This document shows, piece by piece, positions 1,975 through 22,094 of a stretch of DNA of 34,808 bases. The notes beneath the pieces were generated by a model, which was not told the origin of the DNA, did not search any database, and worked only from the letters and a program-made list of their open reading frames with translations. Where the stretch lies: positions 1-34,808 of the forward strand of contig NZ_JAEPKU010000040.1 of NCBI RefSeq assembly GCF_016652235.1. The letters are read 5' to 3'. The stretch comes from Dysgonomonas sp. Marseille-P4677 (GTDB lineage Bacteria; Bacteroidota; Bacteroidia; Bacteroidales; Dysgonomonadaceae). The stretch's first letter is position 1; every line of letters starts with the position of its first letter. The position numbers and the translations under genes are program-made.

Positions 1975-3582
1975 TTAATTCCATCCGGGATTTTGTATAA
2001 GATTTGGATTCAAATCCATTTCGGCCTGTGGTATCGGCCACAGATAATAATGATCCGGGAATCCTCTTTGGCGAATCTTAACTCCGGTAAATTCGGTCAT
2101 CCACACGCCATCTACTACTTTTTTAGCAATTTTCCATCTACGAATATCTGAATACCTCTGCCCTTCGCCGCAAAGTTCCACCATTCTTTCATGATAAATC
2201 TTTTCACGCATCTGATCCTTACTCAAGCCCGAAGGAAGACCTGGCATCCCCACTCTGGCTCTGACACCATCTACTGCATCGTAAACAGACTTATCCGGAG
2301 CTGAAAGAGCCTCATTTTGAGCTTCGGCATACATCAACATCACATCGGCCAAACGGATAAGAGGAAAGTTCTGAGGCATATTGGAAGCCAACGAGTATGC
2401 AGACCCTGTCTCAACAAATTTTCGCCAAGCATAACTTCCATTTTCCCATACCGGTACATATGTATTTGGAGTAACCTTATCTACAGGAAATCTGTAAAGC
2501 AACGACACACCTGTTTTTCCGACGAATTCGGACCAAGGCACTATAATTCCTGCATGTAAGCGAGGATCTCTGTTTTCAAATAATTTTCTGACAGAAGCAT
2601 CATCGTTCCAATCTGTTACACGATTAGGATTGAATGTCTCTCCATTTGCATTTTTGTAATTATTAAAATCAAAAGGTGTTCCATCTATCATTTCATATGA
2701 GTTAACCAGTTCAGGTGTAGGGCGAGTTCGCTGCGAACCTTTCGTTATCCCCGATTGATTGCCATAATTAAGATCCGTAGCTATACCATGACCAGATTCG
2801 GCAACGTATTGAACATCAAAGATTACTTCGCTGTTATTATTTCCCGCCACTCTAAACAAAGTATGATAATCGTTAAGAAGTTTTCTGTCGCTTTTTTCCA
2901 TTATTTCCTTAAAGTCTGCAGCAGCTTTATCATATTGTTTTGCCCACAAATGAGCTTTACCTCTCATTGCTAAAGCTGCCCATTTAGTAGCACGTCCTTT
3001 ATCTACTTGGCTGTAACTTTCGGGTAAAAGAGAAATAGCATCTGTCAGATCCTGTATAATGAACTTATAAACCTCATCTTCTGTATTACGGGCCTTATAC
3101 CCTTCATCAATATTCATTGGGTAATCATATATAGGAACACCTCCGAAATAGTCCCATAGCTTGAAATAGAAATACCCTCTAAAAAATTTTGCTTCGCCCA
3201 GACAACGATTTTTCATTGTCGCATCCATCGATATATTCGGAATGTATTTTAAAGCTGTATTTGCTCTGTAAATACCTTTATAGAATATACCCCAGGAAGT
3301 AGAATAGATTCCGGCATTTGTCGGATTCACACCAGTAGTCAAACCTGTAGCCCACGACTGATAGGCAATATCTGTAAAATCATCCATCATACCATATATC
3401 ACTATACTATTGACAAACTCACGGTTAGCATGATATAGTGGATTTATACCCTGTATCGCATCTTCCTGTGATTTCCAGTAATCTCCTTCTGACAACCCTA
3501 CTAATGAATTTCTGTCAAGAAAATCGCTACAAGAAGATAGAAGACATACAGAGAGTAAGATTAATATTATTTTGTTTTTCAT
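1975..3582 (-). CDS. SusD/RagB-family outer-membrane glycan-binding lipoprotein
   Basis: The start at 3582 is preferred over the upstream ATG at 3624. It gives 535 residues, begins a proper lipoprotein signal (MKNKIILILLSVCLLSSC, lipidated Cys18), has AAAGAG just upstream, and leaves an 11-bp gap after SusC instead of a long overlap. SusD proteins sit on the cell surface as a lid over the SusC channel and bind oligosaccharide. Typical features are SCSDFLDR after the lipobox, the TPR-like region with EAKFFRGYFYFKLWDYFGG and AKQYDKAAADFKEI, and the C-terminal block with FPLIRLADVMLMYAEAQNE, RVGMPGL and the closing YYLWPIPQAEMDLNPNLIQN. It is co-transcribed with the SusC gene. The ligand cannot be read from sequence. 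Confidence 0.95.
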   Translation of the reverse strand: MKNKIILILLSVCLLSSCSDFLDRNSLVGLSEGDYWKSQEDAIQGINPLYHANREFVNSIVIYGMMDDFTDIAYQSWATGLTTGVNPTNAGIYSTSWGIFYKGIYRANTALKYIPNISMDATMKNRCLGEAKFFRGYFYFKLWDYFGGVPIYDYPMNIDEGYKARNTEDEVYKFIIQDLTDAISLLPESYSQVDKGRATKWAALAMRGKAHLWAKQYDKAAADFKEIMEKSDRKLLNDYHTLFRVAGNNNSEVIFDVQYVAESGHGIATDLNYGNQSGITKGSQRTRPTPELVNSYEMIDGTPFDFNNYKNANGETFNPNRVTDWNDDASVRKLFENRDPRLHAGIIVPWSEFVGKTGVSLLYRFPVDKVTPNTYVPVWENGSYAWRKFVETGSAYSLASNMPQNFPLIRLADVMLMYAEAQNEALSAPDKSVYDAVDGVRARVGMPGLPSGLSKDQMREKIYHERMVELCGEGQRYSDIRRWKIAKKVVDGVWMTEFTGVKIRQRGFPDHYYLWPIPQAEMDLNPNLIQNPGWN

Positions 3583-3593
3583 GTCTCTTTTAT

Positions 3594-6500
3594 TTAAAAT
3601 GTTACATTTAAACCAATAACCCATTGCTTCATCAAAGGATACGCCATGCTAGAATTTTCAGGATTATAACCATCGAAGCTCGTGAACGTGAAATAATTTT
3701 CAAGGTTTGTATATACTCTCAATCTTTCAACCATAAACTTAGAACTTAACTTTTTAGGCAAAGTATATCCCATCTGTATCGACTTTATTCTAAAGTAAGA
3801 TGTATTGTATAACCAATAATCACTATTTGCTGTATTAAGCGCTGATCCCGATGTAAGTAGACGTGGATATTCGGTAGACTTATTTTCCGGAGTCCATCGA
3901 TTTAAAACTTCTGCCCTTTGAAGAAAGCCTTCATTTATATTGAATGTATTAAATCCGTCATTACCCCAATATCCTCTGGCACCACTGACTCCTTGCCCAA
4001 CTATATTAAGATCGATACCTTTATATGCTGCGCTAAGATTAATTCCATAAGTCATTTTAGGTAATGAAGAATAATCTTTGATTACGCGGTCGTCAAGATC
4101 GAAAGTTTTATTTCCGTCCGTATCCTTATAAAGCATATCTCCGGGCTTAGGTGTGCCCCCTATGCTGGTTCCAAACTTGTAACCATCGGCGATTAACTGA
4201 TCTATTTCGGCCTGATCTTGTATGATTCGATCAAACTCGAGTACATAGAAACTCTGATAAGGCTTGCCCTCTTGTGTTATAGTAGCTCCGCTGATTGATT
4301 TATCTCCATTATATTTTGTTACTTCATTGCTGATTGTTGATAAATTTCCACTAACACTATAAGTGAAATCTTTGCCTACATTTCCATGATAAGTAAGTTG
4401 GAATTCCATACCTTTATTTGACATCTCAGCTATATTTTGCCAAGGTGGAGTAAAATTTCCAAATACCAGTGGAATTGGAATTGTTGTTAATAAATCAGTT
4501 GTATTTTTGTTATAATACTCGGCACTAAATGATAATCTGTTCTTCAATAGCACCAAATCCAATCCAATATTAGTCATAGTGGTAGTTTCCCATTTAATCT
4601 TGCTATTAGCTAGTTCTTTCGGAGCTACACCTTGCTGAAGTTGGCCTCCAAAAGGATAAAGAAGAGAACCGTATACCACTTGGTAGCCATAATCACCAAT
4701 CCTGTTATTTCCCAGTTTACCCCATGAACCTCTTATCTTCACGTCGTCGAAAATATTCTTTAACGGTTGAGCAAATGATTCTTCTGTCAATCTCCATCCT
4801 CCTGAGAATGAAGGAAAGAACCCCCATCTATTATCTTTGTGGAATCTCGAAGATCCATCATAACGGGCATTAACCTCCACTAAATATTTGCCTTTATAAT
4901 CGTAATTGATACGTCCAAAATATGACCTGAGAGCATCATCAGTTCCGGATCCTGTAATAGCCTCATTCTCAACACCAGCATCCATAATATAGATAGCATC
5001 ATCTCCTAGTATATCACCTTTTCTCGCATCAAACTTATCCATGCGATTGTATTGCTGATCGAAACCAAGCATTACTGCGAAATTGTGTTCTTTATTCAAA
5101 GAATAATTGAAACGTAAGAGTGAATTCAATACAGTTGTATAATCTCTACGTGTACCATTGAAAAGCTTATCTATATTAGAACTAGCCTGATATTCATAGC
5201 CCGTTTGGAAATTCCATAACGAGTATGGCCTTGTATATTCCCAGTTATTTCTGTTATCATAATTGAATCCAAAACTATTTTCCCACTCCAGATACTTCAA
5301 AAATTTAACTTTTGTATAAGCCTTCAATCCCAGTTTCTGTCTTTCATAGTTACCTCTTATATTATCAATATATGCTCTGGGATTTCCTACACGTGGAAAG
5401 TTTTCAAACATTGTACCTCCATAACGTCCGTCCTCATATTGAGGAATAACTCCCGGTGTAGTATTTCTGATATTATCATAAAAGCTAGTTACATTAATGG
5501 GATCCCTATCGGACCAAGAGCCATAAACATTTCCTCCCATATCAAGCCAATTGGTTACTTTCGAATCAACATTGATACGGAAAGTGTATTTCTTATAACC
5601 TGAATTATCTATGATACCTTTATTATCAAGATAGCCGAGAGACATTGAAAAATTCGTATTTTTGCCACCACCTCTTACTGTCAGATTATGTTCTGTCATT
5701 ACCGATGTGTTAAGCATCTCATCATACCAATCGGTACTCGGATAAAGAGGATTGCCTGCCGCAGATTCAGTTCTCCATTGTTCAATCAGACTAACCGGGT
5801 ATTTTTCACGGCCTTCCGATTCATTGACCAACTCCATATGAGTTGCCATATCATTTATAAAGTCAACTTTTTTTGCTGCCTTTTGCCAACCTACATACCC
5901 ACTGTAAGTAACGTTGACCTTACCTTCATTTCCTCTTTTGGTAGTGACTAATATTACTCCATTGGCTGCTCTGGAACCATAAATAGCTGAAGATGCTGCA
6001 TCTTTTAGAACGGATACACTTTCTACATCGTTCGGATTCACATCATTCAATGCCCCCGGCACACCATCAATAATAACCAATGGCGAAGCATCGTTCATCG
6101 TACCTCTACCTCTCACCAGAATATTAACATCTTCTGCACCGGGTGTTCCCGATAACTGGGAGATATTCAATCCTGCACTCAATCCTGTCAGCGCAGAAGA
6201 TAGATTCATCGTAGGACGACTCGATAAAGCTTCATCGAACTTAACTGCCGATACGGCACCGGTAAGATTCTGCTTTTTCATTGTCCCGTAACCGACAACA
6301 ATAACATCATCCATTATATGAGAATCCTCTACTAATTCAATATCGTAATCATTTTTTGAATCGATAGTAACTTCTTTAGTATGATACCCGATATATGTGA
6401 CAACTATCACAGAACCGGGATTTACTGTTAAAGAAAATTTACCATCAATATCCGTCATCGTCGCATTTGTCGTCCCTTTTATAGTAACGCTTGCTCCTAC

Positions 6501-6692
6501 CAGAGGCTCTCCAGCCCCATCTTTAACACTACCTTGTATTTTTTTCTGCTGTGTCGGAACTGATGCAAGGACTCCGATCTCGCTGCCTTTTGCTACCTCA
6601 GGATGAGTGTATGCATATACATCAATATTCGATAGCATCAACATTACAGAGCAAATAAATGCCCATAAAATAAGCTTCTCGCAGTTTTTCAT
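3594..6692 (-). CDS. SusC/RagA-family TonB-dependent outer-membrane transporter
   Basis: It imports oligosaccharides through the outer membrane using TonB energy, capped by the SusD partner encoded next. At 1032 residues it has full family length. In order: signal peptide (about 1-28), carboxypeptidase-regulatory-like beta domain (about 50-125, GSVKDGAGEPLVGASVTIKG), the TonB-box region DDVIVVGYGTMKKQ, the SusC signature region with plug (LVIIDGVPG, VLKDAASSAIYGSRAANGVI), then a 22-strand-type barrel ending WVIGLNVTF with the C-terminal Phe that barrel assembly needs. No N-terminal anti-sigma-interacting (STN) extension is seen, so it is more likely a plain nutrient importer controlled by the nearby XylR-like protein. 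A 528-bp gap separates it from the lyase gene upstream and contains a 14-bp inverted repeat. Confidence 0.97.
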   Translation of the reverse strand: MKNCEKLILWAFICSVMLMLSNIDVYAYTHPEVAKGSEIGVLASVPTQQKKIQGSVKDGAGEPLVGASVTIKGTTNATMTDIDGKFSLTVNPGSVIVVTYIGYHTKEVTIDSKNDYDIELVEDSHIMDDVIVVGYGTMKKQNLTGAVSAVKFDEALSSRPTMNLSSALTGLSAGLNISQLSGTPGAEDVNILVRGRGTMNDASPLVIIDGVPGALNDVNPNDVESVSVLKDAASSAIYGSRAANGVILVTTKRGNEGKVNVTYSGYVGWQKAAKKVDFINDMATHMELVNESEGREKYPVSLIEQWRTESAAGNPLYPSTDWYDEMLNTSVMTEHNLTVRGGGKNTNFSMSLGYLDNKGIIDNSGYKKYTFRINVDSKVTNWLDMGGNVYGSWSDRDPINVTSFYDNIRNTTPGVIPQYEDGRYGGTMFENFPRVGNPRAYIDNIRGNYERQKLGLKAYTKVKFLKYLEWENSFGFNYDNRNNWEYTRPYSLWNFQTGYEYQASSNIDKLFNGTRRDYTTVLNSLLRFNYSLNKEHNFAVMLGFDQQYNRMDKFDARKGDILGDDAIYIMDAGVENEAITGSGTDDALRSYFGRINYDYKGKYLVEVNARYDGSSRFHKDNRWGFFPSFSGGWRLTEESFAQPLKNIFDDVKIRGSWGKLGNNRIGDYGYQVVYGSLLYPFGGQLQQGVAPKELANSKIKWETTTMTNIGLDLVLLKNRLSFSAEYYNKNTTDLLTTIPIPLVFGNFTPPWQNIAEMSNKGMEFQLTYHGNVGKDFTYSVSGNLSTISNEVTKYNGDKSISGATITQEGKPYQSFYVLEFDRIIQDQAEIDQLIADGYKFGTSIGGTPKPGDMLYKDTDGNKTFDLDDRVIKDYSSLPKMTYGINLSAAYKGIDLNIVGQGVSGARGYWGNDGFNTFNINEGFLQRAEVLNRWTPENKSTEYPRLLTSGSALNTANSDYWLYNTSYFRIKSIQMGYTLPKKLSSKFMVERLRVYTNLENYFTFTSFDGYNPENSSMAYPLMKQWVIGLNVTF

Positions 6693-7220: not shown

Positions 7221-9968
7221 TCACTTATTTAGCTCATAGGTTCTTCCTGGAGAAATCAAATAGTCTCCTTTCCGACCATGAAAGAAAATTGTATTTTTAT
7301 TAGGCTCTACCTTAAAATTAGAATAGGTTCTTCTTTCTTTATCATAAATATTCCAAAACCCGGGTTTCAAATCTGTAAGTAAAATCCGAAATGTGGCATC
7401 TTGTTCTACACTAAGAGTAAATTGGCCTTGAATCTGTTCATAACCTGCACTCATACAAACGATACGATCTTCTATAGAAAGAATATATTTGTTATCATCT
7501 TTTCTAAAATCAACAGGCAAGGGATTTGTACCGTCTGACGCCATTTGAAATACAGTCAAAAAACGATTATGCTTAGCCTTCTTTTTCGGATACGCAATAA
7601 TCTGGTATCCATTTGCCTCCGGCAATCCGGATCTGACCTGATACTGAGGCCCCAATACACTACTTGAGTCTCTAAGGCTGGAAATCTCCATATTAAGATC
7701 GCCAAATGATGGCAGTAACATGTTTACATATGTTTTACCTACAATATTATTTACGCGATTGTGCAAGATAATATTTGAGTCTGAAGGCATGGGTTTATTG
7801 AATGTGTTTATTTTCCAATACTTTTCAATATCATGTTTCGATGCAATCAGATCATCTGCTAATATAATTGCAGCAGGCACATCAACTCTACTCAAATTGA
7901 GGAAACAAAAACTACGGGTATAATTACTGATCTTACTCGAATAAGCGGCTGTTAGATCTACTTTGAAATAACTATAAGAAGGCTTTAAGGTCTGGGCTTC
8001 GAAATCTGCTGAGAGCACAGTTCCATTATCGAACCAAGGATTGGTTTGTACCTCTAGAGGTGTCTTGGGTGTCTTTTGATTAAATCGGGTACCACCATCA
8101 TTAATTTTTGTTCTGGGTTCCAACTTTTCATCAGGATCCTTAACCAGCATCATACTGTGCGATACAGATCTTTTATTAAAGTTGAAATCATACGGAGAAC
8201 CGTAATAATAGTATATACCCAGATCACAGATCTGCTGTCCATGATAATAGAGCTGAATAGCACCGGCATCGCAATGCTGATGATTTCCAAAATGATATCC
8301 ACCTCCTTTTATTTCAGCAATAACGTCATTACTGTCTTCATCCATATTCCAACCTGTTCTGGCAATCATGCCTCCTACAACCGGGCCAAAGTCTGTTGAT
8401 AAAGGGAGAGAATTTAAATCTGGGTCAGGTTTTAGATCAGGATCATTCAACAGCAAAAAAAGAATTGGATTTTCCTTTATTCTGTCTAATCCTCCACGAC
8501 GTTCAAACTCAGCTTTTAATATTGGATCATTCGAATAAGCGTAATCCAATAATATGGTTTCAGAATATGCTTTATGAGGTTTAGCAAATCCATCTCCATC
8601 AGATAGTCTTAATCCATTTGGAAGACGCATATACAACCAATAGTTTCTTAGATTCGTTATATTTTCATCAAATATACGATACCCGGCCATCCGATAAAAC
8701 ATCCATACTGCATGCATTGCCCACCCATGTCTGTATGCTCCGTAATCGAATCCCTGACTATGTCGTTGCGATTGATACTCAAACGCCTTCATTGGTAATA
8801 AATCTTCAAGTATAAGATAAGATATATAGCGGTAAGGCTCCGGATCTTCATCATAAACAGCAATACTCATAGCAAATAAGTCTCTATTCACTTGGGCTTC
8901 GGAAGCATGACCACTGACAACGCTTTCTTTAAACGGAGGCCATCCTATTTCCATATAGGAAGCAAGATTCATCATCTTACTATAAATATATTGCCTATCT
9001 TTATCTTTTAGAATATCATAACACCAATCATAGGTGAGTGCTGCCGTATATATAGCTTTTCCTATTTCTCTTGTTATATCCCCACTCCTAACATTTCCAA
9101 ACTCAAGTACTGATAAATAATCTACGATTAGTCGAACAGCTTCAGCTCCAATAGTACGATCCTTGGTTATGAGATAGTAGAATGCTTTTATCACAACAGC
9201 ATCTTCCAGCCCATCATTATGAAAAATTTCTTTCCTTATATCAAATTTAAAGGGAAAAGGTTCCTTGGCTTTATCCTGGACTTTCTGCCATACCAAAAGA
9301 TTTTCCCCCTTCGTTAATCGTTCTTTCACCACAGATAGATTATCCTTATTTACCCACAAACGTGGTCTTTCTATAGGTGGAACGATCGCAGGAATGTAGT
9401 TCACTACTCCATCCGGTACACGCTCTGCTACATACTGCTCTATTTTTATCGACTCAAAAGATATAGCTTTTGGTAACCATATTTTAAGATCTTGCTCCTT
9501 GCGTAAATCGAACAGGCCTAAATCATGATATGAATACTCATACAGATCAGAAACTATTCGTCTGGTTATACGCTGATTATCTATTTGAAGTTTAGCAAAC
9601 CGAGTCTCTACCTTTGCGCCAGGTTTTATATCTTCATCTCTCTCTACATGAGTAAATATCCGGTACTTACCGGACACAGGCACCTTTATGTGGTATACAA
9701 TATCCGGATCATCTTCAGAATCATCACTAACTCTTTCTATAATCTCTTTTCTTAGCTTTATGAACTTTACATCCTGTGGTACAGTCTTGTATATTATCTC
9801 TGTAGTTCTATTATTTATTTTTGCTTTATCTATATTTAAAGTAATACTATAAGTACTATTTAAGGTTTGTGAAGAAATATTATTTTGTGCAGATATAGTA
9901 AATATCGGCAAAAGCATATATATAGAAAAAATAACAAAGTATTGTACATTACTTTTAGAACTATTCAT
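7221..9968 (-). CDS. Exported heparinase II/III-like polysaccharide lyase
   Basis: Proteins of this fold cut uronic-acid-containing glycans by beta-elimination (heparin/heparan, alginate, related polymers). After a signal peptide (cut near ISAQ, about residue 28) comes an extra beta-domain to about 200, an alpha/alpha toroid (about 210-510), and the C-terminal beta-sandwich (from about 525). Residues that line up with the known His/Glu/Tyr/His set of Pedobacter heparinase II are visible: H354xxE357 in SGHASEAQ, Y409/Y412 with H414 in FDYGAYRHGW, and H563/H565 in NHQHCDAG followed by the KRSVSHSMMLV block. At 915 residues it is longer than classic heparinase II (about 770), mainly through the N-terminal domain. 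It is last in the minus-strand operon before SusC. No sulfatase accompanies it, so a non-sulfated uronate polymer is plausible. Fold confident, substrate unknown. Confidence 0.85.
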   Translation of the reverse strand: MNSSKSNVQYFVIFSIYMLLPIFTISAQNNISSQTLNSTYSITLNIDKAKINNRTTEIIYKTVPQDVKFIKLRKEIIERVSDDSEDDPDIVYHIKVPVSGKYRIFTHVERDEDIKPGAKVETRFAKLQIDNQRITRRIVSDLYEYSYHDLGLFDLRKEQDLKIWLPKAISFESIKIEQYVAERVPDGVVNYIPAIVPPIERPRLWVNKDNLSVVKERLTKGENLLVWQKVQDKAKEPFPFKFDIRKEIFHNDGLEDAVVIKAFYYLITKDRTIGAEAVRLIVDYLSVLEFGNVRSGDITREIGKAIYTAALTYDWCYDILKDKDRQYIYSKMMNLASYMEIGWPPFKESVVSGHASEAQVNRDLFAMSIAVYDEDPEPYRYISYLILEDLLPMKAFEYQSQRHSQGFDYGAYRHGWAMHAVWMFYRMAGYRIFDENITNLRNYWLYMRLPNGLRLSDGDGFAKPHKAYSETILLDYAYSNDPILKAEFERRGGLDRIKENPILFLLLNDPDLKPDPDLNSLPLSTDFGPVVGGMIARTGWNMDEDSNDVIAEIKGGGYHFGNHQHCDAGAIQLYYHGQQICDLGIYYYYGSPYDFNFNKRSVSHSMMLVKDPDEKLEPRTKINDGGTRFNQKTPKTPLEVQTNPWFDNGTVLSADFEAQTLKPSYSYFKVDLTAAYSSKISNYTRSFCFLNLSRVDVPAAIILADDLIASKHDIEKYWKINTFNKPMPSDSNIILHNRVNNIVGKTYVNMLLPSFGDLNMEISSLRDSSSVLGPQYQVRSGLPEANGYQIIAYPKKKAKHNRFLTVFQMASDGTNPLPVDFRKDDNKYILSIEDRIVCMSAGYEQIQGQFTLSVEQDATFRILLTDLKPGFWNIYDKERRTYSNFKVEPNKNTIFFHGRKGDYLISPGRTYELNK

Positions 9969-11257: not shown

Positions 11258-11502
11258 TTCTTACTTGTTTTTTTACGAATCACATTTCTAATCAGCCAAT
11301 ATAATAAACGAAAAAACAGAGCTAAAAAATAGAATCCTATACTGAGACTAAACACCCATAGCAACTGTGTATAGAGTTCTTTCCATTCAGTATCGAATAG
11401 AATAATGGAGAATATATTCAATAAAAAAGCAAACAGGAAACAACCTCCCCATATCATTAATTCTGTCTTTTGCCTTTTTGCTGTTATTTTAATATCTTTC
11501 AT
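11254..11502 (-). CDS. Small two-helix membrane protein, unknown function
   Basis: The likely start is the ATG at 11502, giving 82 residues and beginning MKDIKITAKRQKTELMIWGG; the ATG seven codons upstream is less likely. There are two hydrophobic helices (roughly residues 17-37 and 46-70) with a short acidic loop between them and a very basic tail ending RKKTSKK, which predicts both ends in the cytoplasm. I do not recognise the family; it is loosely like the Bacteroidota 2TM-type proteins. It lies 37 bp after the oxidoreductase gene and its stop overlaps the start of the beta-helix gene, so it is firmly inside the operon. It has too few residues for a transporter; an accessory or anchoring role is only a guess. 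Confidence 0.65.
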   Translation of the reverse strand: MKDIKITAKRQKTELMIWGGCFLFAFLLNIFSIILFDTEWKELYTQLLWVFSLSIGFYFLALFFRLLYWLIRNVIRKKTSKK

Positions 11503-12889: not shown

Positions 12890-14293
12890 TTAGAATATTG
12901 GTGTTTCCTTTCTGGCAAGCTCTAGAGCTGTTGTTGTTATATAATATTTAACCAACATGTTAGGAACTTCCCATTCTGGCATTTCACGTGTGATCAAAAA
13001 ATTAAAGTACTTCTCTGCAACCTTAGAAAAATGAGCTTCATGTCCATCATCCATACTTGGTGATATTTCAATTTCCAGCATACCATCATATGCATCTTTA
13101 AGTGAGACAGGATAAATATTCTTCAATTCATCAATAACCTTTGTTATATTTTTACGAAATTCATCTTCTGACGCTTCTGCTCCTTTTTTCACATATAGCT
13201 TTGATTTATATCCTTGTTCTTCACCTTGCAAGACCAATATGATAGCTTTTGTTCCATTAATTACGGTTCTATGTGTATCTCCGGTTCCTTCAGGAGCCTC
13301 ATAATTCCAAATAACTTTTATACCGACATTTACGCCTTTCACCTGATAACCAATTTCTCCATTGGCATACACATACAAGGTCGAATCTTTCACATATTTA
13401 TTTAAATATTCCGGATATTCGGTTATCTTGGTTGAACGGCGAAACTGTTCAGGTGATATAGGAGTAGCCCAATGCCGGGCAGATGTGACCTTTATATCTT
13501 TTTTATAATCGAGGGAAATCTCAGGAAAACACTTCCAATTGATCAAATCGATCAGATGTGTAGTAACATCCACAATTCCCTCGCCTTGCTGTTCTACATC
13601 GTAATACCATGCAGGACGACTAAGCGGATTACCTGATACAATTTTATAGAAATGATGCACGCTCTCCATTTCCACTGCCGGACTTTGTGAAGTCCCGGTA
13701 GTCAAAGTCCCAAAAAACGCTTTATCCTGCATAAGTACCCTACTTAATATATTAATAAAGCTATAGCGCTCGGTCATGATATCGTATAAAAGAACATCGT
13801 TTTTAGCGGAAAGAATAAATGCACTTTTCAATTGCTCGAAAGAAGCTTTATCTATTGCCATCGGCTTATCGGCCAACACATTCAGACCAGCACCGACAGA
13901 TCTAAGAATATAGTCTGTTTTCAGCTGATTATTTCCGGCTAATACTACAACATTTCCATTCTTATCAGAAAGCATTCTTTCTAAAAAGTCACTTCCTGTA
14001 TACACTTTAGGATTCCAATATGTAGGATTGTTTTCGCGATTGTTATATGAATCGATAAGAGCCAGATAATTGTCTAACTCAGGTCCATTTGGAGCATAAA
14101 CTTGTACATTATAATTCAATTGCTTCAACATCGTTTTCTGCAACAAGGCCGCATGGAAATGACCAGGAGCTACTGTTATTAACCGTACCTCACCTTCCGA
14201 CCCATCGAACTTTTTATTTCCAGATTGCATATTACAGGCTGTTATAAGAACCAGAACTGCAAAAAAACAGAATGGATATCTTAAATATTTCAT
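12890..14293 (-). CDS. Lipoprotein oxidoreductase, Gfo/Idh/MocA-like
   Basis: The lipobox is VLITAC with lipidated Cys20, so it is anchored on the periplasmic or outer face. The N-terminal Rossmann-like part starts VRLITVAPGHFHAAL (36-50), without the normal GxGxxG. It continues through VVVLAGNNQLKTDYIL to NVLADKPMAI, with DKP at 142-144 in place of EKP. The larger C-terminal domain (about 150-467) carries GEGIVDVTTHLIDLINW, where His/Asp are placed like the superfamily's active site. It matches the Bacteroidota family described as putative oxidoreductase with an Oxidoreduct_C-type C-terminal domain. The altered cofactor loop means NAD(P) binding should be tested rather than assumed. It is 13 bp after the permease gene and in one operon with the two Tat-type relatives. 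Confidence 0.82.
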   Translation of the reverse strand: MKYLRYPFCFFAVLVLITACNMQSGNKKFDGSEGEVRLITVAPGHFHAALLQKTMLKQLNYNVQVYAPNGPELDNYLALIDSYNNRENNPTYWNPKVYTGSDFLERMLSDKNGNVVVLAGNNQLKTDYILRSVGAGLNVLADKPMAIDKASFEQLKSAFILSAKNDVLLYDIMTERYSFINILSRVLMQDKAFFGTLTTGTSQSPAVEMESVHHFYKIVSGNPLSRPAWYYDVEQQGEGIVDVTTHLIDLINWKCFPEISLDYKKDIKVTSARHWATPISPEQFRRSTKITEYPEYLNKYVKDSTLYVYANGEIGYQVKGVNVGIKVIWNYEAPEGTGDTHRTVINGTKAIILVLQGEEQGYKSKLYVKKGAEASEDEFRKNITKVIDELKNIYPVSLKDAYDGMLEIEISPSMDDGHEAHFSKVAEKYFNFLITREMPEWEVPNMLVKYYITTTALELARKETPIF

Positions 14294-14306: not shown

Positions 14307-15635
14307 TTAGTTTGTTTTTTTGAACGACCAAGTTTGAATTCTATGCCCCACCACAGCAAAGAATATCAAATAAATATAGCAAGGAATCAATATCCAGTAA
14401 GCACTTTGCAAATCCCATCGGTCTGCAAAAGAACCATAGACTATCGGCATAATTGCATTGCCACTCAATCCCATAATCATTAAGGATGAACCAATTTTAG
14501 TAAACCGCCCCAAACCTTTAATAGACAATGGCCATATACCAGCATAAATCAAAGCATTCGGTAATCCTAATGCACATAAAAACCATATGGAAAGAGTACT
14601 TTCATGTCCAAGAATTATCACTTCTTTATTTACAAGAATAATGGCTATTGAAAATATTAATCCAAGTGTACAGCAAAATTGTAATGCCTTTGTTTGAGAA
14701 ATATATTTAGGAATTAAAATAATACCAATCATATATCCTATTATTGTAGCAGTCAGTGTATAAGAAGGAAAGGCTTTAGCCTCCAACAGATTCATCCCCA
14801 TCGATCCGGCATAACTTATTATGGTATCGATAGCCACAATCTGTGTTCCCACATGAATAAACAAAGCAATAGCACCAAGTATCAGATATGGAAATTGAAA
14901 GATAGAAGTTCTTTTATGATTGCAATTCTCTTCTTCTTTATTATTCTCCTCTGGATCAATTTCAGGAAGAACAGAATAGCGGATAAATATTCCAAATAAC
15001 AATAATATTATAGATAATATCGCATACGGTTTTATAACACGACGAATTAAATCATCCAGCATCATATTTTTAGAAGCTTCGTCTAATGTTCCCGATTCTA
15101 AAAGAGTAAATAAACTACTATCCGTCACTTTCAGAACTACAGCTGCAAAAATGAGTGGAGATATGATTCCTGCAATCTTATTACATATCCCCATCAAGCT
15201 TATCCTTTTGGCTGCACTCTCGATAGGTCCCACAATAGTTATATATGGATTTGCAGCCGATTGTAAGATTGTTAATCCGGCTCCTATCACAAAAAGTCCG
15301 GCCAGAAAAATCCCATATGTCCGGGTCAAGGCCGCCGGAATAAATAATGCGGCTCCAACAGACATACAAATAAATCCGTACATTATACCTCGTTTATATC
15401 CTACTTTATTTAGAATATGAGCAGATGGAATAGACAAGCAGAAATAGGCTATATAAAATGCAAAAGCAACAAAATATGATTCGAAATGCGTTAACTCACA
15501 TGCAATTTTGAAATATGGTATAAGTATTGCATTAACCCATGAAACTAAGCCGAAAATAAAAAACATTGCCCCAACTATGATTATTGCAATTGTTGTATTA
15601 TGCTTGTTTAATTGTTGATTATTTTGTTGTTCCAT
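14307..15635 (-). CDS. FucP/NagP-type sugar MFS permease
   Basis: This is a 442-residue, 12-helix major facilitator protein of the fucose/glucose/GlcNAc:H+ symporter group. Family marks include FFIFGLVSWVNAILIPYF in helix 1, YFCLSIPSAHILNKVGYKRG between helices 2 and 3, GLTILQSAANPYITIVGP and the RISLMGICNKIAGIISPLI region. A charged cytoplasmic loop (DPEENNKEEENCNHKR, about 226-241) divides the two six-helix halves. Members move fucose, glucose/galactose or N-acetylglucosamine across the inner membrane. With NagA- and NagB-like genes nearby, an amino sugar or a modified (keto) derivative is the preferred cargo, but this is inferred. It lies between two oxidoreductase genes, 46 bp after the upstream one and 13 bp before the next. 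Confidence 0.9.
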   Translation of the reverse strand: MEQQNNQQLNKHNTTIAIIIVGAMFFIFGLVSWVNAILIPYFKIACELTHFESYFVAFAFYIAYFCLSIPSAHILNKVGYKRGIMYGFICMSVGAALFIPAALTRTYGIFLAGLFVIGAGLTILQSAANPYITIVGPIESAAKRISLMGICNKIAGIISPLIFAAVVLKVTDSSLFTLLESGTLDEASKNMMLDDLIRRVIKPYAILSIILLLFGIFIRYSVLPEIDPEENNKEEENCNHKRTSIFQFPYLILGAIALFIHVGTQIVAIDTIISYAGSMGMNLLEAKAFPSYTLTATIIGYMIGIILIPKYISQTKALQFCCTLGLIFSIAIILVNKEVIILGHESTLSIWFLCALGLPNALIYAGIWPLSIKGLGRFTKIGSSLMIMGLSGNAIMPIVYGSFADRWDLQSAYWILIPCYIYLIFFAVVGHRIQTWSFKKTN

Positions 15636-15681: not shown

Positions 15682-17022
15682 CTAGAGTTTCATTTCCCAA
15701 CCTTGCTCATAATCGCGGCTCCAATACTTCGTCGCTTCAGCATCCTGAATGATACGTCCATTAGCTGAATCGACATTCAAAGACCGACCTACACGCTGCG
15801 AAATATTTCCAACCTGCATCAACACTGTACTCTTATGACCTGAAACTATATCTGAATTTAACTTTGCACCCTTTCTTATACCATCGAAAAAGTTATTTAT
15901 ATGTAATGCGTCCAGACTCTCTGCCGGATTCATCAGATTTCGTGGATCTATCTCAAGCTTACTATATTGTTGCTTTACCACTTGATTATCCATATCGAAT
16001 ACCCGATAGCCATCGCTACCTGTAATCAACATGCTTCCTTTATCTCCGTAAAACATAGAACCTACACTACTGCCTTCTATAGTTCTTCCATTACAACTTC
16101 TTCCTTCCCAAGATATCGATTTGCTTTTTCCAAACTCTATATTTATAACCTGAGTATCGGGAGTTTCCCAATCATCTTTATAATAATAACGGCCTCCTGC
16201 AGAATTTACCATTGTGGGGTAATCCACATCCATTCCCCAACGCAAAAGATCGACCATATGTGTACCATTATTCATAGATTCTGCCGTACCCCAACGCCAA
16301 AACCAATGCCAATTGTAATGAACCACATTATCTTTATAAGCCACACGTGGTGCAGGCCCTTGCCACAAATCCCAATCGAGCCATTCGGGCACAGCAACCT
16401 CTTTGCCAATCCCTATCGACGGGCGATTGTTTGTATACCAAGCTTTTCCGAAATGAACATTTCCTATAATACCTTCCTTAATAGCCTGTATTGCTTCCAT
16501 CACATTCGGCCAGGAACGCCTCTGATTCCCCATTTGGAGAACCCTATTGTATTTTGCAACAGCATTAATAAGTATTTCACCTTCCTCTGGACAGTAACTG
16601 CATGGTTTCTCCAAATATATATCTTTCCCGGCCTGCATTGCCATTAAAGCACCGGGAGCGTGCCAATGGTCAGGTGTTGCTATAATTACAGCATCGATAT
16701 CTTTCGATTCAAGAACTTTTCGTATATCTTTTTCTGCTTTTGGTCTAAAACCTTGAATTTTTGCCACAGCATCAGAGCATTTTGCTATAGCCCTACTATC
16801 TACATCACAAACATATGTTATCTCGCACCCTTTTTGCTTTGCGAAGTTTGCAGCCAAGGCACCACCCCTAGAGTTAACTCCAATTGCGGCAACTCTTATT
16901 TTTTCGTTTGCTCCGCTTATATTAGAATAACTCTTAGCACTCATTCCATTTAATACTCCCCCGAATGAAAGAGCAGAAGCTCCCATTACTGCTTTTTTTA
17001 AGAAATCACGTCGTGTACTCAT
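15682..17022 (-). CDS. Exported (Tat-type) Gfo/Idh/MocA oxidoreductase, first gene of the minus-strand operon
   Basis: A twin-arginine signal STRRDFLKKAVMG opens the protein. The dinucleotide site is VAAIGVNSRGG (44-54), the catalytic-region motif is YLEKPCSY (EKP 138-140), and the C-terminal bacterial-type domain ends with the characteristic YWSRDYEQGWEMKL. The WHWFWRWGTAESMNNGTHMVD segment supplies the superfamily histidine and is rich in aromatic residues suited to sugar binding. 446 residues is normal for the exported group. It is the promoter-proximal gene of a seven-gene run (to 7221) with mostly short gaps and faces the XylR-like gene across 550 bp. The role is probably periplasmic sugar oxidation or redox-assisted glycoside cleavage; direction and substrate are unknown. 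Confidence 0.9.
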   Translation of the reverse strand: MSTRRDFLKKAVMGASALSFGGVLNGMSAKSYSNISGANEKIRVAAIGVNSRGGALAANFAKQKGCEITYVCDVDSRAIAKCSDAVAKIQGFRPKAEKDIRKVLESKDIDAVIIATPDHWHAPGALMAMQAGKDIYLEKPCSYCPEEGEILINAVAKYNRVLQMGNQRRSWPNVMEAIQAIKEGIIGNVHFGKAWYTNNRPSIGIGKEVAVPEWLDWDLWQGPAPRVAYKDNVVHYNWHWFWRWGTAESMNNGTHMVDLLRWGMDVDYPTMVNSAGGRYYYKDDWETPDTQVINIEFGKSKSISWEGRSCNGRTIEGSSVGSMFYGDKGSMLITGSDGYRVFDMDNQVVKQQYSKLEIDPRNLMNPAESLDALHINNFFDGIRKGAKLNSDIVSGHKSTVLMQVGNISQRVGRSLNVDSANGRIIQDAEATKYWSRDYEQGWEMKL

Positions 17023-17189: not shown

Positions 17190-17220
17190 CAAAAGCAAAC
17201 ACTATTGACTTTATGTCAAA
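17190..17220 (-). promoter_or_regulatory. Candidate promoter of the minus-strand PUL operon with overlapping palindrome
   Basis: On the minus strand there is TTTG (17217-17220), exactly 19 bp, then TGCTTTTG (17190-17197), seven of eight to TAnnTTTG. The leader would be about 160 nt. A palindrome TTGAC-TTTAT-GTCAA (17205-17219) covers the upstream box and part of the spacer, a position where a bound regulator would control RNA polymerase directly. Confidence 0.4.
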
Positions 17221-17572: not shown

Positions 17573-18727
17573 ATGTTGAAAATACTCGTTCTAACAGATT
17601 TTTCAAGTGGATATAGCCGCCGATTACTGGAAGGTATTATCCGCTATTCCAGAGAAGTCGGTCCCTGGTCTTTTTTACGCATGCCTTTATACTATCAAAT
17701 GATATATGGAGAGGATGGTGTTGTCGATTTTGCGAAGAAATGGAAAGCTGATGCCATAATTGCCCAACTACGGGATGTGAATCTGGAACTATTCAACACT
17801 CTGGATATCCCTATTATTGTACAAAACTATCGTGAAAGAAATAAAGCCATATCTAATCTAACCGGAGACTACTACGAAACCGGCACCATGGCTGCCGACT
17901 TTTTCATAGGAAAGGGCTACCGAAATTTTGCATATTATGGATATCAAAATGCCATATGGTCGCGGGAAAGAGGATTCGGATACAAAGAAAGAATCGAAAA
18001 ATATGGCTATGAGTGTAAAGTCTTAGAAAATAAAAATCCTGATAATAAAGAATGGTTATATAACACCGAGTATATGGGCAAATGGCTACAGTCTCTGCCT
18101 AAACCTATTGCACTTTTTGCTTGTGACGATTATTATGCACTTCAAATATCCGAAACTTGTAATATATTCAATATTAATATTCCCGATGAAGTTGCTATAT
18201 TAGGTGTGGATAACGACACTCTATTGTGCAATCTGTCTACTCCCACTCTATCTTCCATTGTTCTTGATGTAGAAAACGGTGGGTATCAGGCAGCAAAATT
18301 ATTAGATAAGTATGTAAAAGGTGAAATAAATGAGGCATTCAACATCGTCATTAAGCCTTTATATATAGAAAACAGGGCCTCGACAGATAAATATGCAGTC
18401 CCAGACGAGCATATCAAAACAATACTGGATTATATTAATGAGAATTATAGTAATAAGATATCAGTCAGTGACCTGATCGACTTAGTTCCTTTATCCAGAA
18501 GAGTTCTTGAAAAAAAGTTTAAACGTCTCACAGGTACATCTATATACCAATGCATTCTGGACCAAAGAATTAATCATTTCATCAAATTACTTCTGACCTC
18601 CGATCTGCATTTACCGGACGCTGCTATTCAAGCCGGATTTGATGATTACAAAAACGTGTCCCGTATCTTTCGAAAATACAAATCTATATCACCGGCAGAA
18701 TATAGGAAGCTATATAAAAAACAGTAA
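17573..18727 (+). CDS. XylR-like transcriptional regulator (sugar-binding PBP fold + AraC HTH)
   Basis: Residues 1 to about 275 form a LacI/XylR-type periplasmic-binding-protein fold used inside the cell as a sugar sensor: MLKILVLTDFSSGYSRRLLEGI, GDYYETGTMAADFF, KPIALFACDDYYALQISE, PDEVAILGVDNDTLLCNLSTPTLSSI. Residues about 278-384 are an AraC-family double helix-turn-helix (KISVSDLIDLVPLSRRVLEKKF, then AIQAGFDDYKNVSRIFRKY and SPAEYRKLY). The same architecture and length (384 versus about 390) occur in E. coli XylR, which activates on binding cytoplasmic xylose. It is transcribed divergently from the PUL operon and toward nagA, so both sets are probable targets. Using a cytoplasmic sensor instead of a hybrid two-component system or SusR means the signal is a sugar already imported. 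Ligand unknown. Confidence 0.93.
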   Translation: MLKILVLTDFSSGYSRRLLEGIIRYSREVGPWSFLRMPLYYQMIYGEDGVVDFAKKWKADAIIAQLRDVNLELFNTLDIPIIVQNYRERNKAISNLTGDYYETGTMAADFFIGKGYRNFAYYGYQNAIWSRERGFGYKERIEKYGYECKVLENKNPDNKEWLYNTEYMGKWLQSLPKPIALFACDDYYALQISETCNIFNINIPDEVAILGVDNDTLLCNLSTPTLSSIVLDVENGGYQAAKLLDKYVKGEINEAFNIVIKPLYIENRASTDKYAVPDEHIKTILDYINENYSNKISVSDLIDLVPLSRRVLEKKFKRLTGTSIYQCILDQRINHFIKLLLTSDLHLPDAAIQAGFDDYKNVSRIFRKYKSISPAEYRKLYKKQ

Positions 18728-19056
18728 CTAAATTTTATTTTTATAAATAATACTATTACACGCAAGGATCAGCTATTATCCGACTAACAACCCGATACGC
18801 CAGATAATATTTATTCTATAAAGGAAATTACTATATAAGGTTTTAAATTACACTTTAAAACCTTATGAGTAAATGGTATACTATAGACAAAACATCCTCT
18901 TTATACTTTTATAATATCTTTTCTGACAAAAGAAAACTTTGACGTCTTATGAGGATAGTCATTCGCATTACAAACCTTATTCTGAAATTATAAAAGCGTA
19001 ATTTTGAAACATCATTGAATCACTATCTCGTTAGTTACTAATAATACAAATCTAAT
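18728..19056. other. 329-bp gap between regulator and nagA-like gene
   Basis: No gene is visible. It contains the 13-bp hairpin (18835-18866) and an exact TAnnTTTG octamer (TAATTTTG, 18999-19006) about 50 bp before the nagA-like start, which could be its promoter; no TTTG stands at the required distance. The gap shows that nagA probably has its own promoter rather than relying on the regulator transcript. Confidence 0.5.
18835..18866 (+). terminator. Perfect 13-bp hairpin after the XylR-like gene
   Basis: ATAAGGTTTTAAA and its exact complement flank the 6-nt loop TTACAC. The stem is long but AT-rich and is not followed by a T-tract (GAGTAAAT follows), so termination may be weak. An operator or attenuator for the nagA transcript is the alternative. 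Confidence 0.45.
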
Positions 19057-20250
19057 ATGAGAATTATAATAAAAAATGCGACTCTTATTTTACCGAACAA
19101 GGTATTGGAGAGAGCTTTCATTGTATGCACTGATGGTATTATTTCTGAACTTGGAGAAGGTAACTTCAACTTTTGTACGGACTCTGATCTGGTAATTGAT
19201 GCAAAAGGGAATTATGTATCTCCCGGATTTATCGATATACACACACATGGCGCAGGTGGATACGATTTTATGGATAATACTGTAGAGGCCTACCTTGGTG
19301 CTGCTCGTGCACATGCTAAATACGGGACAACCAGCTTAGTTCCCACTACATTGACCAGCACAATAGAAGAACTTCTAAATACATTTGACATATATGAGCA
19401 GGCAAAAAAAAACAATATAGATGGAGCAGATTTACTCGGACTCCATTTGGAAGGACCATATTTTGCATACAATCAGCGAGGGGCACAAGACCCTAAATAT
19501 TTACGAAATCCTATACCGGAAGAGTATAATGCTATATTGGAGAAAGGTGAGAAGCATATAATCCGTTGGAGCATGGCCCCGGAATTGGATGGTGCACTAG
19601 AACTTGGACAGCTATTATATTCGAAAGGCATCCTAGCATCACTTGGACATACGGATGCTCTTTACGAAGAAGTTGTAGATGCATATAAATGTGGATTTAC
19701 ACATGTCACACATCTTTATTCTTGCATGTCAAGCATCACAAGACGCAATGCCTATCGCTATGCAGGAGCCTTAGAAGCATCGTACATGATTGATGACATG
19801 AGCGTTGAGATAATTGCGGACGGAATACACCTCCCTAAACCATTATTACAATTTGTTTGCAAATTCAAAGCGTTTGATAAGATCGCTTTATGCACCGATT
19901 CTATGAGAGCTGCCGGAATGCCCGACGGCGAATATATACTAGGAAATAAGAATAATGGACAAAAGGTGATTGTCGAGGATGGAGTAGCTAAACTACCAGA
20001 CCGCACAGCCTTTGCCGGTAGTGTGGCAACAGCAGACCGCCTGATTCGTACGATGATACAAATTGCAGAGATTTCACTTTTTGACGCTGTAAAAATGATG
20101 AGTCAAAATCCAGCCCGTATTCTAGGTATTGACAAAACCAAAGGCTCTTTGGAAGTAGGAAAAGATGCCGATATCATAATCTTCGACTCTGACATTTCAA
20201 TACAAACAACAATCGTAAAAGGTAAAATTATTTATACATACAACACTTAA
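19057..20250 (+). CDS. nagA: N-acetylglucosamine-6-phosphate deacetylase (NagA family)
   Basis: NagA removes acetate from GlcNAc-6-phosphate in the cytoplasm, giving glucosamine-6-phosphate. The amidohydrolase-superfamily residues are present: H62-T-H64 in IDIHTHGAGGYDFMD, E132 in HLEGPYF, H198 in GHTD, H219 in THLYSCM, and the catalytic Asp281 in CTDSMRAAGMPDG. FAGSVATADRLIR near the C-terminus is also typical. THLYSCMS replaces the more common THLFNAM, and TDSM replaces TDAM, so it belongs to a side branch whose substrate may be a related acylated amino-sugar phosphate. 397 residues is normal. It is followed after 9 bp by a NagB-like gene, forming the usual two-step pair. Family confident; exact substrate less so. 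Confidence 0.88.
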   Translation: MRIIIKNATLILPNKVLERAFIVCTDGIISELGEGNFNFCTDSDLVIDAKGNYVSPGFIDIHTHGAGGYDFMDNTVEAYLGAARAHAKYGTTSLVPTTLTSTIEELLNTFDIYEQAKKNNIDGADLLGLHLEGPYFAYNQRGAQDPKYLRNPIPEEYNAILEKGEKHIIRWSMAPELDGALELGQLLYSKGILASLGHTDALYEEVVDAYKCGFTHVTHLYSCMSSITRRNAYRYAGALEASYMIDDMSVEIIADGIHLPKPLLQFVCKFKAFDKIALCTDSMRAAGMPDGEYILGNKNNGQKVIVEDGVAKLPDRTAFAGSVATADRLIRTMIQIAEISLFDAVKMMSQNPARILGIDKTKGSLEVGKDADIIIFDSDISIQTTIVKGKIIYTYNT

Positions 20251-20259
20251 TGTTTAATT

Positions 20260-21018
20260 ATGATTTTAAAAAAGGATAAACTGACGGTAAAAATATATAC
20301 CTCAACCAAGGATATGTCTGTCAGTGCAGCACTTGATGTGTCTTCAAAAATAAAGGAACTCCTAAGCCAAAATGAATATATTAATATGATTTTTGCAGCA
20401 GCTCCATCCCAATCTGATTTCTTCAAAGAACTTATCACATATAAAGACATTGACTGGGGACGAATAAATGCTTTTCATCTTGATGAATATATTAACTTGA
20501 ACGAAAATGCACCTCAAAGATTTGGCAATTTCCTTAAAAAAGAAATATTCGGGTTACTCCCTTTCCGAAATATTTATTATCTTGACGGAAACAAACCTAT
20601 TGAAGAAGAATGTAAGCGATATACAGCCTTACTGGAAAAATACCCACCTAAAATTATATGTTTAGGAATAGGAGAAAACGGACATATTGCATTCAATGAC
20701 CCTCATGTTGCAAACTTCAATGATCCTGAAACGGTAAAAGCTGTTATGCTGGACGAAAGATGTAGACAACAACAGGTAAACGACAAGTGTTTCGACAAAA
20801 TAGAAGATGTACCGGATAAAGCGCTTACCCTAACAATACCAACTCTACTCTCTGCCGAATATTTGTTTTGTATCGTACCATTCAAGTCAAAGGCACAGGC
20901 AGTATACAATATGATAAATGGGGAAATTACAGAAGCGTGTCCTGCATCTATTTTAAGAACCAAGGATAATATAAATCTATACTTAGATAAAGAAAGCTCG
21001 TCTTTGTTAGTTTTGTAA
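20260..21018 (+). CDS. Glucosamine-6-phosphate deaminase-like protein (divergent NagB)
   Basis: NagB converts glucosamine-6-phosphate to fructose-6-phosphate and ammonia. Fold and active-site blocks are visible: AFHLDEYINL with D75/E76 and GIGENGHIAFNDP (136-148) with H142, which opens the sugar ring in known enzymes. The phosphate-binding loop, PTGGTP-like in ordinary NagB, is replaced by FAAAPSQSDFF (45-55). The C-terminal half (QQQVNDKCF, ALTLTIPTLL, CPASILR) also follows the divergent type often found beside sugar oxidoreductase genes. 252 residues is slightly short. It lies 9 bp after nagA. It may deaminate or isomerise a different amino-sugar phosphate from the classical enzyme. Family confident, reaction uncertain. 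Confidence 0.8.
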   Translation: MILKKDKLTVKIYTSTKDMSVSAALDVSSKIKELLSQNEYINMIFAAAPSQSDFFKELITYKDIDWGRINAFHLDEYINLNENAPQRFGNFLKKEIFGLLPFRNIYYLDGNKPIEEECKRYTALLEKYPPKIICLGIGENGHIAFNDPHVANFNDPETVKAVMLDERCRQQQVNDKCFDKIEDVPDKALTLTIPTLLSAEYLFCIVPFKSKAQAVYNMINGEITEACPASILRTKDNINLYLDKESSSLLVL

Positions 21019-21083
21019 AAAAATCTTATAAGAAGTATATATTTTCATCCTGTACTAAATAACAATTAAAAATTTATCGACAT

Positions 21084-22094
21084 ATGAAACTAAGAATTAT
21101 AACATTATCAATTTTATATTTTTTTATATCCGTATGTATATATTCCCAGAATGTTATCAAATTAGGAATTATAGGACTAGATACATCGCACTCTCCCGCT
21201 TTCATCAAACTCCTGAATGATGAAAATGCACCTGAACAATATAAAGGGTTCAAAGTTGTTGCAGCATATCCTTATGGTTCAAAAACAATAGAAAGTAGCG
21301 CCAAACGTATACCCGGATACATGGAAGAAGCTAAAAACAATGGAGTTAAAATAACAACTTCAATAGCTGAAATGCTTAAACTTGTAGATTGTGTGCTTCT
21401 GGAGACCAATGACGGCAACTTACATTTAGAACAAGCACTTGAAGTATTTAAGTCAGGAAAACCTATGTTTATTGATAAACCAGTCGCAGCCAATCTGGCC
21501 GAAACCATTGCTATATTCGAACTTTCTAAAAAATATAATGTCCAAATATTCTCTTCTTCAGTTCTGCGATATTCCCCAATAAATCAAGAAATTCGTAAAG
21601 GCGAACATGGTAAGGTACTTGGTGCAGATTGCTATTCGCCCGATGCATACGAACCTAGCCATGCCGACTTCACATGGTATGGTATACATGGTGTGGAAAC
21701 ACTATACACCGTTATGGGTACAGGATGTGTAGAGGTAAGCCGCCAATCGACAAAAGACTTCAGCGTTGTGACCGGCGTATGGGCAGATGGCAGAATAGGC
21801 ACATTTAGAGCAATCCGTACAGGACATAACTACTTTGGAGGAACAGTATTTTGTAGCGGAAAAATGGTACAAGCCGGAGGATATGATGGATACAAAGTAT
21901 TACTAGATGAAATTCTTAAATTTTTCAGAACAAAGGAGATTCCTGTTAACCCCGAAGAAACCATAGAAATATTCACTTTCATGGAAGCATCTAATGAAAG
22001 TAAGCGACAACATGGAAATACGGTATCGATGGAAAGTATTCTGGAAAAGGGCAAATTGGAAGCCCGGCGCATACTAAAAAGCTTAGATAACTAA
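21084..22094 (+). CDS. Exported Gfo/Idh/MocA-family oxidoreductase
   Basis: A signal peptide (about 1-21, ending CIYSQ) sends the protein across the inner membrane by the Sec route; no twin arginine is present. The Rossmann part begins KLGIIGLDTSHSPAF (26-40), where TSHS replaces the glycine-rich GxGxxG loop. DKP (131-133) stands for EKP. FTWYGIHGVETLYTVMG contains the expected active-site histidine. At 336 residues it has only the short C-terminal domain. It follows the NagA/NagB pair by 65 bp on the same strand and ends before a very strong terminator, so it closes that operon. It is the fourth exported member of the superfamily within 11 kb. Reaction unknown. Confidence 0.82.
   Translation: MKLRIITLSILYFFISVCIYSQNVIKLGIIGLDTSHSPAFIKLLNDENAPEQYKGFKVVAAYPYGSKTIESSAKRIPGYMEEAKNNGVKITTSIAEMLKLVDCVLLETNDGNLHLEQALEVFKSGKPMFIDKPVAANLAETIAIFELSKKYNVQIFSSSVLRYSPINQEIRKGEHGKVLGADCYSPDAYEPSHADFTWYGIHGVETLYTVMGTGCVEVSRQSTKDFSVVTGVWADGRIGTFRAIRTGHNYFGGTVFCSGKMVQAGGYDGYKVLLDEILKFFRTKEIPVNPEETIEIFTFMEASNESKRQHGNTVSMESILEKGKLEARRILKSLDN

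Follow-up and report, generated by a model that had tools for sequence, protein, structure and literature searches.

A locus for glycan utilisation in Dysgonomonas sp. Marseille-P4677 joins a heparinase II (PL21)-type lyase module to a cassette of exported Gfo/Idh/MocA (GIM) proteins and to genes for the salvage of N-acetylglucosamine (GlcNAc). It is real, conserved and found in several genomic settings. The locus lies in the window, by which is meant the whole 34,808-nucleotide stretch of DNA analysed, a complete contig (NZ_JAEPKU010000040.1; C215 of genome G000) of a 4.73-Mb genome that is 99.95% complete. Judged from the encoded proteins, it is plausible that the core is an exported 3-keto route of oxidation, elimination, hydration and reduction, which would free GlcNAc (or, elsewhere, a uronate) from small glycosides. 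To the reading that this SusC/SusD locus, with its lyase, redox cassette and GlcNAc salvage, works by the route set out below we give a probability of about 0.55.

A syntenic unit in Dysgonomonas

The proteins of the window were identified by Pfam and NCBIfam profile searches, the Pfam search covering 24 open reading frames (ORFs) at an E value of 0.001. A first-pass annotation of the sequence had listed SusC/SusD, a lyase, a beta-helix protein, a permease, a regulator, a NagA/NagB-type pair and four GIM proteins, and all of these were recovered. They form two divergent runs that start from the regulator region. The minus-strand run reads GIM3-NagP-GIM2-GIM1-(82-aa ORF)-beta-helix-lyase-SusC-SusD-ApbE, the plus-strand run regulator-NagA-NagB-GIM4. 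The products may be divided into SusC, SusD, the lyase and the beta-helix protein; GIM2, GIM3 and GIM4, together with GIM1, a small membrane protein and ApbE; and NagP, NagA and NagB. The adjacent genes for the SusC-like TonB-dependent transporter (3594-6692, minus strand; TIGR04056, 943 bits against a cut-off of 368) and the SusD-like glycan-binding lipoprotein (1975-3624, minus; PF07980 and PF14322 above cut-off) place the locus among the polysaccharide utilisation loci of Bacteroidota.

Twenty-five genomes of the genus were examined, 18 of them with a completeness of 90% or more and a contamination no higher than 5%. The lyase and GIM2 co-occur in the same five (5/25), a count that leaves out a weak lyase match in genome G010 (E 1e-6). 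Gene order from ApbE to GIM4 is the same in four other Dysgonomonas genomes, which makes this one syntenic unit. Accidental adjacency, which the first-pass annotation had proposed to check by a genome survey, is rejected on the exact co-occurrence and the shared order. ApbE follows SusD in all five loci, the window included, and GIM4 ends its run in the four (4/4) whose contig extends that far, the contig of G019 stopping at the regulator. The unit is thus wider than the 1975-22094 first proposed: the genes named there are present, but ApbE (973-1788) is its conserved edge and the 82-aa ORF had been overlooked. Among named organisms, Dysgonomonas hofstadii has the unit, and so does a strain that goes under the name Prevotella sp. 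10(H).

Identity to the window across the four relatives is 87-91% for GIM1 and GIM3, 74-92% for SusC, 82-83% for the beta-helix protein and merely 65-67% for the lyase. Three of them (G003, G011 and G005) have four genes inserted between beta-helix and lyase, which in G003 encode a DapA-like aldolase, an NRAMP-like transporter, an M20 amidohydrolase and a 342-aa protein with no family match, whose Dyadobacter relative matches an SDR-type epimerase. A genome of another family (G563) has SusD, SusC, lyase, beta-helix protein and 82-aa ORF at 65-83% identity, and the lyase module therefore occurs outside the genus.

The redox core

Inspected by eye, the N-termini agree with what had been stated: two of the four GIM proteins have apparent Tat signals (RRDFLK), one a lipoprotein signal (ITAC) and one a Sec signal. 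GIM1 (11540-12844, minus) is Tat-exported, matches PF01408 and PF22725 and has the motifs GTGSRG, EKS and ExxxH; the third position of EKS varies (EKS in 4 of 7 sequences, EKA in 3), so EKS is not a family mark. GIM2 (12890-14293, minus) is a lipoprotein of the PF16490 family (384 bits), whose structure match, PDB 4oo3 (E 1e-141), is named solely 'hypothetical protein'; its nucleotide loop is replaced by PGHFHA in 78 of 81 sequences. The Tat-exported GIM3 (15682-17022, minus) matches PF01408 and PF19051. GIM4 (21084-22094, plus) is a short, Sec-exported protein (PF01408, 37 bits) with the motifs GLDTSH, DKP and WYGxHG in 17 of 17 sequences.

The first reading had drawn on GH109 enzymes, which cleave glycosides through a transient oxidation. 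The GH109 C-terminal domain PF21252 is absent from GIM1-4 at E 0.001, a protein of genome G034 serving as positive control (171 bits), and so is the GGHGG loop, which that protein also has and which carries the GH109 catalytic acid/base (title cited in PMC10755693, consulted as an excerpt). A GH109 identity is thereby ruled out for all four. With the BT2158-family model NF058561 (cut-off 750 bits) GIM3 scores 146 and GIM1 93, GIM2 and GIM4 are unmatched, and the G034 protein reaches 812. The predicted model of GIM3 (predicted local distance difference test, pLDDT, 79) has the fold of the BT2158 glycoside 3-dehydrogenase. Its nearest neighbours are DgpA, RgNanOx, the Alistipes glucoside-3-dehydrogenase AL3 and YjhC, followed by levoglucosan dehydrogenase and GH188; the glucuronide-3-dehydrogenase 8tdi, WlbA and KanD2 are also found. 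The model thus suggests that GIM3 most closely resembles glycoside 3-dehydrogenases and redox glycosidases. The GH109 entries 2ixa and 6t2b also appear in its Foldseek list.

The linkage of these proteins to amino-sugar salvage was examined in a scan of named genomes, which returned at least 548 GIM2 relatives; the best 80 were kept, and the sample is therefore biased to close relatives. Flanks were at most 10 kb, some contigs being short, and genes were counted with profiles built from the 80 loci. PF16490 itself is rare, occurring in 5 of 247 genomes of the class, the window's own included. NagA and NagB are both present in 24 of these best 80 loci, and among the 24 there are NagP in every one, GIM3 in 21, GIM4 in 18 and GIM1 in 4. 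DUF6807 occurs in none of the 24 and in 17 of the 56 others, and DUF1080 in none and in 4, by these multi-sequence profiles; single-sequence queries put DUF6807 in none of the 24 and in 14 and 6 of the 56, and DUF1080 in none and in 3. Only the two Dysgonomonas loci among the 80 have lyase and beta-helix protein, and in 22 of the 24 the core stands without an ortholog of either in its flanks, where the neighbours were not all scanned for hydrolases. In G301, from another family of the class, the order GIM3-NagP-NagA-NagB-GIM2 recurs at 51-60% identity, with no SusC/SusD or lyase within 19 kb starting at the contig end. In a quickly built tree of GIM2, linkage to Nag genes is spread over two deep groups and requires seven or more changes.

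The salvage genes of the window encode a NagP/FucP-type inner-membrane permease of the major facilitator superfamily (14307-15635, minus; TIGR01272, 256 bits, above cut-off; NagP model NF046060, 359 bits, below its cut-off of 625), the GlcNAc-6-phosphate deacetylase NagA (19057-20250, plus; TIGR00221, 298 bits, cut-off 226) and a NagB-like glucosamine-6-phosphate deaminase (20260-21018, plus), which is above cut-off for the superfamily PF01182 and at 125 bits falls below the 237 of TIGR00502.

The same core also stands beside uronate genes. In one locus (L132) GIM4, GIM3 and GIM2 are found with the glucuronate isomerase UxaC, and a second GIM2 of the window genome (49% identical) lies with a GIM3-like protein, two DUF6807 proteins, an SDR and the mannonate dehydratase UxuA. 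GIM2 loci of Dyadobacter (L115) and Daejeonella (L086) also encode proteins related, at 42-52% identity, to the 342-aa protein and the DapA-like protein of the Dysgonomonas loci; there is an SMP-30-type lactonase in L109, with its relative in L115, and an enolase-superfamily protein in L086. These neighbours may belong to an oxidative uronate route. If the core opens glycosides, it would be expected to occur, as it does, with downstream genes now for one sugar and now for the other. The first-pass proposal of a lyase with an exported redox route for an amino-sugar/uronate glycan thus gains support from the NagP/NagA/NagB and glucuronate linkages and from the fold of GIM3.

In the route proposed, the lyase would cut a heparosan- or heparan-type uronate/amino-sugar glycan to short oligosaccharides with an unsaturated end, which SusC/SusD would bring in. 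In the periplasm GIM3 (perhaps GIM1) would oxidise a ring hydroxyl, most likely at C3, with bound NAD; the glycosidic bond would be lost by beta-elimination, and hydration of the enone and reduction of the keto group would follow, GIM2 and GIM4 providing the other half-reactions. Free GlcNAc would enter through NagP and be phosphorylated by a kinase encoded elsewhere before reaching NagA and NagB; ROK-family proteins (nine matches in the genome) are a possible source of that kinase. All of these reactions are inferred, and so are the substrate, the position of oxidation at C3 and the roles assigned to the individual GIM proteins. More tentatively, it is possible that GIM2, GIM3 and GIM4 make up a self-contained exported glycosidase, with GIM3 as the dehydrogenase and GIM2 and GIM4 as eliminase/hydratase and reductase in place of the DUF1080 and TIM-barrel proteins. 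This would be a GlcNAc/uronate branch of 3-keto breakdown, and GIM1, the 82-aa protein and ApbE would be an optional link to an electron carrier.

That GIM1 is linked to an electron carrier is a guess. The 82-aa membrane protein (11254-11502, minus; no Pfam match), the stop codon of whose gene overlaps the beta-helix start, was recovered by tblastn against all loci from each of the six loci among the 80 with an ortholog of GIM1 (in L060 only residues 1-54 are aligned), from all five Dysgonomonas genomes with the unit and from G563; elsewhere a single match was obtained, at E 0.29. The window's ApbE-type FAD:protein FMN transferase (973-1788, minus; PF02424, 138 bits) has counterparts of its own type beside GIM1 in L060, L063, L077 and L098, all, like the window's, without a signal peptide by eye; the ApbE of a Pedobacter locus (L090) is of a different, exported type. 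When the unit's proteins were searched for flavinylation motifs, SusC matched once (DKSISGAT) and GIM1 poorly, at residues that are not conserved, and therefore no ApbE target is named.

Several observations weigh against the proposed route. NagA and NagB are not both present in 56 of the 80 loci, Dyadobacter accounts for 16 of the 24 with both, and 24 of the 80 have no GIM3-like protein. In a Parabacteroides locus (L060) GH20 and a sulfatase-type protein stand beside the same genes. GIM2 and GIM4 are without the usual glycine-rich loop, and their use of NAD is therefore unproven; the shared fold alone does not show the function of GIM3. The window genome has 12 DUF1080 (PF06439) domain matches in 10 open frames elsewhere, and in G005 (the strain of L059, among the 24) a GIM and DUF1080 pair follows GIM4 on the same strand, beyond the stretch counted; this pair is located elsewhere in the window genome and in G003. 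The claim that the usual partner is missing consequently stands at the level of the locus (0/24 with DUF1080 or DUF6807) but not for the genome. Finally, the beta-helix protein may itself be a hydrolase and perform the cleavage.

The lyase module and rival routes

The exported lyase (7221-9968, minus; HepII_C domain PF18675, 46.2 bits, cut-off 26.1) aligns with heparinase II over 712 query residues (PDB 2fut, E 6e-101). The heparinase II residues His202, Tyr257, His406 and Glu205 (PMC12088678, as excerpted) correspond, when positions are counted with an offset of 24, to H354 (His202), E357 (Glu205), Y409 (Tyr257) and H563 (His406), which are invariant in seven aligned sequences, the window included. 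The protein thus has both the domain and the catalytic residues of PL21. It differs from heparinase II in some 190 extra N-terminal residues, and with the HepB equivalog NF045571 it scores 445 bits, below the cut-off of 600; any exact substrate assignment is therefore tentative. Between lyase and SusC, D. hofstadii encodes a relative of heparan-alpha-glucosaminide N-acetyltransferase (NagX-like, E 1.5e-23; no Pfam match). NagX proteins have been proposed, in the excerpt consulted, to convert periplasmic glucosamine to GlcNAc for NagP (PMC9007349), and this neighbour would be consistent with a glycan yielding glucosamine or GlcNAc.

In another genome (G034) the same SusC/SusD/lyase theme is combined with the classical redox route (BT2158-family protein, DUF1080 and GH109), which we count in favour of the proposed route. 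That related locus (L025, L026) also contains an ECF sigma factor, GH97 and a sub-threshold DoxX. In G563 a sulfatase (L152, 4695-6242) lies about 5 kb, or three genes, from the SusD of the lyase-module copy.

The rival that survives best, although we consider it doubtful, is classical cleavage, in which the GH28-related beta-helix protein, with GH88 or DUF1080 enzymes from elsewhere in the genome, would hydrolyse the lyase products and the GIM proteins would merely tidy unusual sugars. No sulfatase, GH88, DUF1080, DUF6807, TIM-barrel partner or glycoside hydrolase family was matched in the 24 ORFs of the window, in agreement with the first-pass annotation, except that a relative of the beta-helix protein qualifies that statement. 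The exported beta-helix protein (10061-11257, minus) matches no Pfam family even at E 5, PF00295 (GH28) included, and a PglB polygalacturonase model only below cut-off (1.8e-6). Its nearest outside relative (L140, about 30% identity) does match Glyco_hydro_28 (PF00295; 35.2 bits, cut-off 22.9), with N-x-D-G and D-D stretches that the window protein keeps in the alignment, and a second relative (L141) scores just below cut-off. Orthologs more than 80% identical adjoin the lyase in 6/6 genomes (five Dysgonomonas and G563). Its predicted structure (mean pLDDT 46.5) is too poor for a fold search. The genome supplies 11 GH88-family matches, two of them strong, besides the DUF1080 proteins; KduI is also present. 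Against hydrolysis of this kind, the 22 of 24 Nag-linked loci that are without lyase or beta-helix ortholog argue that the job of the core is independent of them, and the GH28 profile misses the window protein itself. G005 has the locus yet no GH88-family match above 36 bits, where the other four carriers of the genus reach 300-402, so GH88 is not evidently needed. As a separate observation, the distant beta-helix relative in L141 adjoins a DUF1080 protein.

It is unlikely that the GIM set instead converts a modified or epimeric N-acetylhexosamine (3-amino or keto-accessible, for example) to GlcNAc before uptake, with no cutting of glycosides. Next to GIM/NagP genes, a Tat-type DegT aminotransferase and a ceramidase-type protein are encoded repeatedly (L081, L082, L088, L060 and others); with two members of each group scanned, they lie near GIM2 in 8 and 9, respectively, of the 27 loci in which NagA, NagB or NagP is matched at more than 45%. 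Such an aminotransferase and amidase in some clusters recall 3-amino-sugar chemistry, hinting at amino- or acylamino-sugar substrates, and WlbA and KanD2 are fold neighbours of GIM3. However, no DegT or ceramidase-type gene was seen in the Dysgonomonas units, and the GIM trio with glucuronate isomerase in L132 fits a broad release of glycosides better. Last, an ordinary heparan or heparosan locus beside unrelated oxidoreductase genes is very improbable: the PL21-type residues are intact and the genome is rich in GIM proteins (22 PF01408 matches), but the exact co-occurrence in 5/25 genomes, the shared order and the recurrence of the core in distant taxa speak against it.

Surroundings, known systems and significance

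The block is bracketed by tRNA-Asn genes, as had been reported, at 666-740 and 22267-22341 (both minus), which sit in left and right copies of an 83-bp repeat, 97.6% identical. The four other Dysgonomonas loci contain no tRNA gene in the sequence retrieved for them, and the repeats were rejected as a general integration site. The plus-strand run begins with a XylR-like regulator with a LacI-type sensor (PF13377) and an AraC helix-turn-helix (PF12833) (17573-18727, plus); no shared 9-mer operator was found upstream of different genes of the Dysgonomonas loci at the thresholds used. A Peptidase S24 (LexA-like) protein (95-619) adjoins the left tRNA-Asn, and in G003 a repressor-like ORF (by eye) lies beside ApbE. 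Genes for a PfkB kinase and an SDR are followed downstream by one for a sub-threshold C45/AAT autoproteolytic acyltransferase-like protein (24198-25415). The second GIM2 locus of the genome (C257; L030, L053) is near sulfatase-like genes by eye, and the GIM2 of L086 is accompanied by SusC/SusD and ceramidase-type, DUF1080-like, SDR-like, DapA-like and enolase-superfamily genes.

The 3-keto glycan route of Bacteroides comprises the glycoside 3-dehydrogenase BT2158, the DUF1080 protein BT2157, a TIM-barrel protein and BT2159. The window resembles it in its SusC/SusD setting, in a Tat-exported GIM3 with the fold of AL3 (24% identity over 369 residues) and in having 8tdi among the fold neighbours (PDB titles 8tdf/8tdh/8tdi). 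It differs in the score of GIM3 against the BT2158 cut-off (146 against 750 bits), in a unit without DUF1080, DUF6807 or TIM barrel, in the linkage to NagP/NagA/NagB and in its four different GIM paralogs. The NAD-dependent N-acetylgalactosaminidases of GH109 share the superfamily, export and redox chemistry as a model, and differ in the domain and loop discussed above. The GH188 NAD-dependent sulfoquinovosidases, fold neighbours of GIM3 at 17-18% identity, act on a sulfosugar, and SusC/SusD linkage is not described for them in the excerpt consulted (PMC10755693). RgNanOx and YjhC rank 2 and 6 in the VIA list of GIM3 neighbours. According to an excerpt (PMC7535918), a single GIM protein of this kind oxidises, eliminates, hydrates and reduces on an N-acetyl sugar, but these enzymes act on 2,7-anhydro-sialic acid after import and not on periplasmic glycans. 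Among the literature matches listed no description of a GIM cassette with NagP/NagA/NagB was found, which is weak evidence of absence since the slash in Gfo/Idh/MocA is unsearchable.

Among the 3-keto glycan systems of Bacteroidota the locus is plausibly a variant that adds an amino-sugar branch, by a putative mechanism, and it may free amino sugars from glycans in a manner not described before. It defines a testable cassette of five to seven genes (GIM4, GIM3, NagP, NagA, NagB and GIM2). If the proposed route is true, PF16490, with its solved structure 4oo3, would acquire a role, and a candidate substitute for the DUF1080 step would be at hand. Amino-sugar glycosides, which form the backbone of host glycosaminoglycans, mucins and bacterial capsules, could then be opened by exported redox enzymes without a recognisable glycoside hydrolase, and this in Bacteroidota which surveys of carbohydrate enzymes might class as incapable of it.

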